Below, one piece after another: positions 29,714 through 31,185 of a stretch of DNA of 64,000 bases. Both the position numbers and the translations under genes were made by a program. Source of the stretch: Myxacorys californica WJT36-NPBG1 (GTDB lineage Bacteria > Cyanobacteriota > Cyanobacteriia > Leptolyngbyales > Leptolyngbyaceae). The first letter of the stretch is position 1; each line of letters begins with the position of its first letter. The stretch spans positions 1 through 64,000 of the forward strand of contig JAHHHO010000030.1 of the NCBI GenBank assembly GCA_019359315.1, in the 5' to 3' direction. The notes beneath the pieces were generated by a model. It was given only the letters and a program-made list of their open reading frames with translations. It was not told where the DNA came from and did not search any database.

Positions 29714-30082
29714 CTAACCGCGCCGTGCTTTTTCCATGCACCAGTTCAACAACGGACGCAACGATTCAGGAACACTTGCCTCTCCAACTCTCACCGTGTG
29801 GTGCTGGTTGCCATCTTCGATCGTAATCTCATACTGAAACCGATCCGGTTGTGGGGCAGCCGGGATCTCGGCGGGCAATCCAAAAAAGTTTGCCGACTGA
29901 ACAAGATGCTGGAGTTGCTCGGTTTCAGTAGCAGGTAAGGTTGCCGTGTCTACTGAGGTTGTCACGATCAATCCAGCAAATCCACCACTCCGCTCAAAGG
30001 TGACACGCATAGACGAATGAAGGGATGAACAAGAAAGAAGTAGAAGTACCGCAACAATAGCGCATAACACTGCTTTTCTCAT
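29714..30082 (-). CDS. Emfourin-type protealysin inhibitor with lipoprotein signal
   Basis: A 122-residue protein with an N-terminal signal (hydrophobic residues 4-17, then SC with Cys18). The mature domain beginning MRVTFERSGGFAGLIVTTSV resembles emfourin, a small inhibitor of M4 proteases of the protealysin type. The stretch LVQSANFFGLPAEIP and the C-terminal RFQYEITIEDGNQHHTVRVG fit that family. It follows the M4 protease gene by 38 bp on the same strand, the pairing known for emfourin/protealysin. The lipoprotein-like N-terminus is unusual, since characterised emfourin is described as lacking a signal peptide. Confidence 0.8.
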   Translation of the reverse strand: MRKAVLCAIVAVLLLLSCSSLHSSMRVTFERSGGFAGLIVTTSVDTATLPATETEQLQHLVQSANFFGLPAEIPAAPQPDRFQYEITIEDGNQHHTVRVGEASVPESLRPLLNWCMEKARRG

Positions 30083-30120
30083 GTTTTCATCCCAGTGTCT
30101 TCATCTCAGTTCAAACTCTA

Positions 30121-31185
30121 CTAAATCACCCCGACTGTCTTCCAAGCATTCTGAACGGCTTTCTTTTCATCACTGTCGCGTCCGTACAACTCACCCGCGA
30201 TCGTCACCGTCGTATTAGCAGCACGTTTGAAGTTGGATTGCGATCGCAGCCGATCGGTCAGCGCGATGTACCAAATTTTTCCGGCTTTCTCCCAAGCATA
30301 GCCGCCCATCTCGCTGGCTGCTAGATAAAAGGCGCGATTGGGAATTCCAGAGTTGATATGAACGCCTCCATTGTCTGCTTTTCCGGTATAAATTTTGCTC
30401 ATATCCGCAGGCTGAGGATCTTTGCCCAACACTTTATCGTCGTAAGCCGTTCCGGGCGCTTTCATCGATCGCAACGCCGTGCCGTCTACCTTGTCAGTTA
30501 AAAGTCCTGCGCCGATCAGCCAATCCGCTTCTTCGGCAGTCTGATTCAAGGTACGCTGCTTGATCAAGCTGCCAAACACGTCGGACATGGATTCATTTAG
30601 CGCGCCCGGTTGTCCCTTATAGACCAATCCAGCTTCGTGTTGCGTAACGCCGTGGGTTAGTTCGTGCCCAATAATATCAATCGAGATTGTAAAGCGATTG
30701 AACAACTCTCCGTCGCCATCACCATAGACCATCTGGCTTCCATTCCAGAAAGCGTTGTCATACTTCTGATCAAAATGCACTGTAGAATCTAGGCGCATTC
30801 CGAAGCTATCGATCGAGTTGCGCTCGAAAATGTCGTAGAAAAAGTCGTAGGTTGCGCCTGATCCATCGTAGGCTTCATCTACCATTACATCTCCGGTTGG
30901 TGGATCACCTTCTCCGCGCACTCGCTTTCCAGGAAGATCAGTTCCCGTACCCGCGTCAAAGATAGTGCGGCGCTTTTCTCCTGCGATCGCCACATTGAAG
31001 TTAAGTGCTCCAACGATCGCACGACGCTCCCGAAACTGCTCGGACGCCCGAATACTTTGCAGCGCCCATTCTTTTTGCGTCGAATCTCCGTTCAGAACAA
31101 TCTGATCGCTCATGTGAGGCGGCAGAATGCAGCAGATCGGACAAATATGATTGAGCGAAGGCTTACATCTCTTGTTTCTCGCCAT
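30121..31185 (-). CDS. Protealysin-like M4 zinc metallopeptidase
   Basis: A thermolysin-fold protease of 354 residues. Zinc ligands are His174 and His178 in HELTH and Glu198 in the GALNESMSD motif; Glu175 is the catalytic base. The transition-state His is in DNGGVHINSGIPNRAFY. The N-terminus has no signal peptide but a short precursor segment with CPICCILPPHM, the PPHM motif typical of protealysin-like short propeptides that are removed autocatalytically. It is probably cytoplasmic or exported by a non-Sec route. The adjacent emfourin gene supports a protease-inhibitor pair. Confidence 0.92.
   Translation of the reverse strand: MARNKRCKPSLNHICPICCILPPHMSDQIVLNGDSTQKEWALQSIRASEQFRERRAIVGALNFNVAIAGEKRRTIFDAGTGTDLPGKRVRGEGDPPTGDVMVDEAYDGSGATYDFFYDIFERNSIDSFGMRLDSTVHFDQKYDNAFWNGSQMVYGDGDGELFNRFTISIDIIGHELTHGVTQHEAGLVYKGQPGALNESMSDVFGSLIKQRTLNQTAEEADWLIGAGLLTDKVDGTALRSMKAPGTAYDDKVLGKDPQPADMSKIYTGKADNGGVHINSGIPNRAFYLAASEMGGYAWEKAGKIWYIALTDRLRSQSNFKRAANTTVTIAGELYGRDSDEKKAVQNAWKTVGVI

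Follow-up and report, generated by a model that had tools for sequence, protein, structure and literature searches.

An emfourin-family inhibitor with a predicted lipoprotein leader beside a protealysin-like protease without a signal peptide in the cyanobacterium Myxacorys californica

Emfourin (M4in; PDB 6zyg) of Serratia proteamaculans is reported to inhibit protealysin and thermolysin and shares an operon with the protease, and deletion of m4in lowers FtsZ, which fits a meeting of the two proteins inside the cell (PMC9505478). Other papers report protealysin in outer-membrane vesicles, with a type VI route proposed (PMC11172720), and both protealysin and grimelysin in vesicles (PMC7311988, PMC11172720). 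A title listed among the references of PMC6778150 reads 'Protealysin is not secreted constitutively'. The view of an earlier note on this DNA, in which known pairs come together within the cell, agrees with the m4in deletion and with that title, but covers only a part of what is published, given the vesicle and type VI reports. The site of action of protealysin-like proteases is unsettled: those read here are signal-less, yet Serratia members are reported both inside cells and in vesicles. Among the papers listed by a literature search, with subscription papers mostly outside its scope, none dealt with lipidated or exported emfourins.

The window analysed here is a stretch of 64,000 nucleotides from Myxacorys californica WJT36-NPBG1 (contig JAHHHO010000030.1). 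On its minus strand the protease gene comes first, and the inhibitor gene follows after 38 bases in the window genome and after 23 in Myxacorys almedinensis, the sole congener compared (loci L007/L023). The earlier observation of a lipobox emfourin beside a leaderless M4 protease is confirmed, and the features concerned are collected in Table 1.

Table 1. Features of the inhibitor–protease pair, with positions counted along the window.
Feature	Position	Strand	Basis or remark
Emfourin-family inhibitor with lipoprotein leader, 122 aa	29714..30082	(-)	PF20242, AlphaFold2 model
Asp80 codon, candidate zinc-coordinating aspartate	29843..29845	(-)	Alignment
Met25 codon	30008..30010	(-)	Place at which many leaderless homologues have their start codon; opens strand 1 of the model
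Leader, residues 1-24, lipobox LLSC	30011..30082	(-)	Sequence; kept in congener L007/L023
Cys18 of lipobox	30029-30031	(-)	Sequence
Inter-gene spacer, 38 bases	30083..30120	(-)	TGGGATGAAAA ahead of leader Met common to both Myxacorys genomes
Protealysin-like M4 protease, no signal peptide, 354 aa	30121..31185	(-)	PF01447/PF02868, best PDB match 2vqx
PPHM of short precursor, CPICCIL before	31111..31122	(-)	Sequence; most cyanobacterial homologues have it or a near variant

The protease matches both the Peptidase_M4 and the M4_C domains, and its best PDB match is the protealysin precursor (E 9.2e-117, residues 19-353). Like protealysin and other protealysin-like proteases, it has a short precursor with a PPxM-type motif, the M4 catalytic motifs and no signal peptide: CPICC stands at residue 15, PPHM at 22, HELTH at 174, NESMSD at 197 and GGVHINS at 273, and the N-terminus, MARNKRCKPSLNHICPICCILPPHM, contains no signal-like segment. 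A hidden leader is ruled out, since an in-frame stop lies 5 codons ahead of Met1, and the gene reads as intact; the earlier description of an M4 protease with a PPHM short precursor and no signal was therefore correct. The neighbouring protease is the only PF02868 match of the genome, and a second M4 target with this domain was sought there and not found. Only one of 117 distinct PP-motif protealysin-like frames was flagged as signal-like (L051, owing to its CPICCIL stretch), and 11 more M4 frames had no PP motif, four secreted-type ones among them.

The inhibitor, which begins MRKAVLCAIVAVLLLLSCSSLHSSMRVTFERSGG, passes the curated cut-off of 27 for PF20242 (Emfourin) with 98.5 bits (E 2.9e-28). 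Read by eye, residues 1-24 (MRKAVLCAIVAVLLLLSCSSLHSS) form a lipoprotein-type signal with an MRK n-region, a hydrophobic core and L-L-S-C. The leader of M. almedinensis is MRKAVLCAMVAIFLVSCSSLHSS, and its lipobox was flagged by our home-made script. The two Myxacorys leaders differ by 9 substitutions (3, 0 and 6 at the first, second and third codon positions) and one whole-codon gap, and the four residue replacements are all conservative (I/M, V/I, L/F and L/V). With an equal number of substitutions placed at random, a BLOSUM total this high arises in 0.35% of placements, whereas so few residue changes arise in 12% (P 0.12, weak) and so few class changes in 9% (P 0.09, weak); constraint on the leader is thus indicated by one of three measures, in a small sample. 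The genome encodes the signal peptidase II LspA (PF01252, E 2.4e-38), which lipoprotein processing requires. The signal claimed earlier at Cys18 is real, as judged from LLSC, the n-region and conservation in the congener; lipidation of the inhibitor is a well supported prediction, and the leader is very probably in actual use.

The AlphaFold2 model of the inhibitor has a mean pLDDT of 90.4 and a pTM of 0.76. Its first strand spans residues 25-33 and so begins at Met25, from which the tether after Cys18 would comprise six residues only. The model aligns to Serratia emfourin at Z 5.1 (rmsd 5.0, 82 residues, 22% identity), and a Z below 8 may reflect a common arrangement. Mago nashi chains gave the best fold matches (Z 7.2-9.4, above 6zyg); a functional meaning of this match was set aside, and we read it as a shared arrangement. 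The Streptomyces protease inhibitors sermetstatin, SSI and SSTI matched the model at Z 4.4-4.8. A PDB sequence search with the cyanobacterial emfourin alignment missed 6zyg, which was reached by fold comparison and through a proteobacterial relative that matches it with E 1.7e-33. The likeness to Serratia emfourin consists of Pfam membership by way of that relative, an aligned Asp and the weak fold match, whereas 6zyg and its nearest proteobacterial relatives do not have the lipobox leader, or any other. The Asp80 column was read in 21 chosen rows, taken from cyanobacteria and from two samples, one around a Methylococcales record and one around a Chloroflexi record, and all 21 have Asp there. 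In the NMR work on emfourin an Asp reportedly coordinates the catalytic zinc of the protease, and we take Asp80 to be a candidate for this inhibitory-loop residue.

Leaders were surveyed among emfourins by our own reading together with one home-made rule for signal-like starts. Across 134 non-redundant loci (the window locus left out, the congener in, and L186, which lies below the Pfam cut-off, included), the rule found signal-like starts at 14 in frame, against 2 and 1 in the shifted frames, and lipoboxes from an ATG at 4 in frame against 0 and 0. The script missed 28 further loci, most of which were read by eye, L159 and L187 excepted. In the phylum sample, the family occurs in 21 of 386 genomes and carries a leader in three: the window genome, its congener and G380, whose leader is Sec-like (L020). 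In the order, the family is encoded by 25 of the 42 genomes, and leaders of three kinds (lipobox, Tat-like and hydrophobic) are present in 6 of these 25 genomes and in 3 of 11 genera. They comprise the lipobox leader in both Myxacorys genomes, a TRRxF Tat-like leader in 3 of 4 genomes of genus g158 (Stenomitos, Tildeniella), and a hydrophobic leader with a GTG start in the single genome of Leptolyngbya FACHB-36. By the earlier note, homologues uniformly lacking the signal would have refuted its reading; this is half borne out, since most homologues read have no leader and many have an ATG exactly at Met25, yet the lack is not uniform.

A contig collection contributed 80 loci, kept from 215 candidates, with leaders at seven (L023, L024, L038, L049, L082, L085 and L096), some of these genes also being part of the order sample. 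Around the Methylococcales record, 24 of 398 genomes were over the cut-off, with one Sec-like leader (L150). Around a Syntrophaceae record, the family occurred in 2 of 345 genomes, with a leader in L132 (the same gene as L085), the other locus being L193; around G425, the genome of L049, 3 of 343 were over the cut-off, with a leader in L127 (the L049 gene) and none by eye in L194 and L195. Weak possible leaders at L029, L030 and L095 were left out of the counts, and the remaining emfourin loci that were read had none. Taken together, a leader-bearing inhibitor is predicted to be paired with a leaderless protease in Myxacorys, the Stenomitos group, FACHB-36, L096 (a Synechococcales MAG) and L150 (in the proteobacterial sample). 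The Stenomitos and Tildeniella loci L038, L082 and L119 are like Myxacorys in this pairing and unlike it in the kind of leader. Emfourins with no M4 match in the examined flank are L029, L043, L085 and L020 (the last with none within 3.3 kb); of these, L085 and L020 bear leaders. At L022, a 712-aa open frame contains two emfourin-like stretches (SSGGFAGRTYET and SSGGFTGRTYET), the match being below the cut-off.

In a tree built by a quick method from the joined protease and inhibitor cores (107 rows; 25 loci with no script-recognised protease in the flank and three secreted-type pairs were left out), the Myxacorys pair sits in a 12-row clade (SH-aLRT 99) whose other ten rows are leaderless. 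In the genomes compared, the leader characterises the genus as a whole, surrounded by relatives that have none, and comparable export leaders seem to have arisen repeatedly in other bacteria. Under the assigned labels the tree requires at least six changes of leader state; L049 is doubtful, its protease start being uncertain, and the count would presumably be five with its row removed. In Stenomitos rutilans (L076) the inhibitor is leaderless and the spacer is of zero bases, with the protease stop adjacent to the inhibitor start, whereas its relatives L038, L082 and L119 have spacers of 124, 156 and 193 bases that carry the Tat-like leader. In the sister Phormidesmis locus L025, an 89-base spacer without an in-frame ATG lies where Myxacorys has its leader, with a faint likeness to Myxacorys just ahead of the inhibitor ATG. 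It is a speculation that the Myxacorys leader was recruited from spacer DNA.

A different arrangement was found in the sample around the Chloroflexi record, in which 26 of 251 genomes were over the emfourin cut-off. By our reading, 17 of the 26 have a leaderless protealysin-like protease with a leaderless inhibitor. In five genomes, divergent emfourins have lipobox-like leaders by eye (L175, L177, L181, L183 and L188), of which the strict script called a lipobox in L181 alone. L175, L177 and L188 directly precede M4 proteases with N-termini that look signal-like by eye; the FTP propeptide motif scores above its cut-off in L177 and L188, but below it in L175. As in Myxacorys, an emfourin domain follows a lipobox and its gene adjoins that of an M4 protease, but the Chloroflexota protease has a signal-like N-terminus and a long precursor, the emfourin is on a longer tether, and its gene precedes that of the protease. 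Two kinds of pair occur in genome G1046, one leaderless (L162) and one exported (L188); L184, truncated at the end of its contig, resembles the exported pairs. The literature examined holds no description of this lipobox-bearing emfourin branch. A signal-bearing protease with a lipobox emfourin is the design expected of an envelope guard. Since the Chloroflexota pairs match in leader state, inhibitor and protease would usually share a compartment, and Myxacorys and a few others differ.

We propose, with a probability of roughly one half, that in Myxacorys an envelope-anchored lipoprotein emfourin guards against a protealysin-like protease released without a signal peptide. After export, the emfourin would receive a lipid on Cys18 and stay at the outer face of a membrane, anchored through its six-residue tether. 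Mature protease would leave cells through lysis of neighbours, in vesicles or by another leaderless route, and on reaching the envelope would be blocked by the anchored emfourin, which would act like a surface-bound immunity or guard protein against protease released by kin; a cytosolic form started at Met25 may perhaps exist alongside. That the protein is lipidated, where it lies, that it inhibits its partner and how the protease is released are steps that we infer. This proposal rests on the conserved lipobox leader, the difference in length of the spacer ahead of it between the two Myxacorys genomes, the presence of LspA and a leaderless neighbour as the only M4 match, and also on the recurrence of leaders beside leaderless proteases, the exported Chloroflexota pairs and the vesicle reports. 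Against it stand the minority status of leaders (6 of 25 genomes in the order), the retention of Met25, the weakness of two of the three tests of leader constraint, the title denying constitutive secretion of protealysin, a search for an injection route whose one sheath-family match is prophage-like, and the short tether, which may crowd a bound protease. The earlier interpretation as a whole is thus partly supported. If the inhibitor is useful outside, the protease must arrive there, and lineages with a leader-bearing inhibitor and a leaderless protease are natural experiments through which the question of protease release becomes testable in easily handled cyanobacteria.

Contractile injection was considered as a release route and rejected. 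A single-profile search gave one sheath-family match in the genome, and it lies within a prophage-like cluster, so that no dedicated injection route was found with this profile. The cluster (L192, C23:15000-33500) has terminase, portal, head, sheath, tape-measure and endolysin matches. A thylakoid-anchored contractile system may escape a single profile; the ghost-cell paper (PMC8894136) serves as background here.

The main rival of an envelope guard turns on Met25. Many leaderless cyanobacterial homologues have an ATG exactly at this place, although its invariance in the alignment is partly an artefact, the leaderless rows having been begun at that ATG. The ATG at the old start is kept in the leader-bearing window gene, L007, L024, L038, L082, L119, L150 and L020; TTG occupies the place in L049 and L085 and Ile in L096, and none of the five Chloroflexota lipobox emfourins has an old start of the ATG/TTG type. 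Since Met25 is kept, internal initiation is possible, and one gene may give two products, a lipoprotein from Met1 and the ancestral cytosolic inhibitor from Met25, so that cytoplasm and envelope are both covered. Persistence of the ancestral start as ATG or TTG in the loci just listed is consistent with this, as is the synthesis of the protease itself in the cytoplasm. However, strand 1 of the model begins with Met25, whose retention structure alone could explain; L096 carries Ile at this place; and retention over a small divergence, among rows that are not independent, could be due to chance. The window gene has no Shine-Dalgarno match ahead of Met25, which counts against a second product, but this does not settle the matter, as the sister L025 also seems to begin at that place with no such match. 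We consider two products rather unlikely. A broader proposal, equally tentative and doubtful in our view, is that emfourins are immunity proteins whose location can be switched: in several lineages with leaderless protealysin-like proteases, a leader of the lipobox, Tat-like or Sec kind would have been added independently upstream of the old start codon, the codon being mostly kept, so that one gene could guard cytoplasm and envelope against protease from dying kin or neighbours.

It is improbable that the leader is untranslated and that the inhibitor starts at Met25, being cytosolic like its relatives. The internal start raised in the earlier note draws on the many leaderless homologues that begin exactly there, and the 89-base spacer of Phormidesmis L025 is similar in length, with some likeness before the ATG. 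Yet lipobox, charge and hydrophobicity are kept in the congener, the two leaders differ by a whole-codon gap and a codon-position bias, and signal-like starts are in excess in frame over the shifted frames. Just as improbable is a lipoprotein that protects the surface from thermolysin-like proteases made by other organisms, predators or competitors, and has little tie to the neighbouring protease: emfourin is reported to inhibit thermolysin too (PMC9505478), and leader-bearing emfourins L020, L085, L181 and L183 have no M4 match in the examined flank, but inhibitor and protease are closely linked in both Myxacorys genomes.

A further feature concerns the protease precursor. Within four residues before the PP motif, 103 of the 117 protealysin-like frames have a Cys (positions 31111-31143 of the window, and homologues), which in most of the cyanobacterial precursors belongs to a longer CPICC stretch or a near variant of it. 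The precursor 2vqx, aligned from SVIPPYM, does not have CPICC there. The Cys before PPHM is a possible zinc or cysteine-switch ligand.
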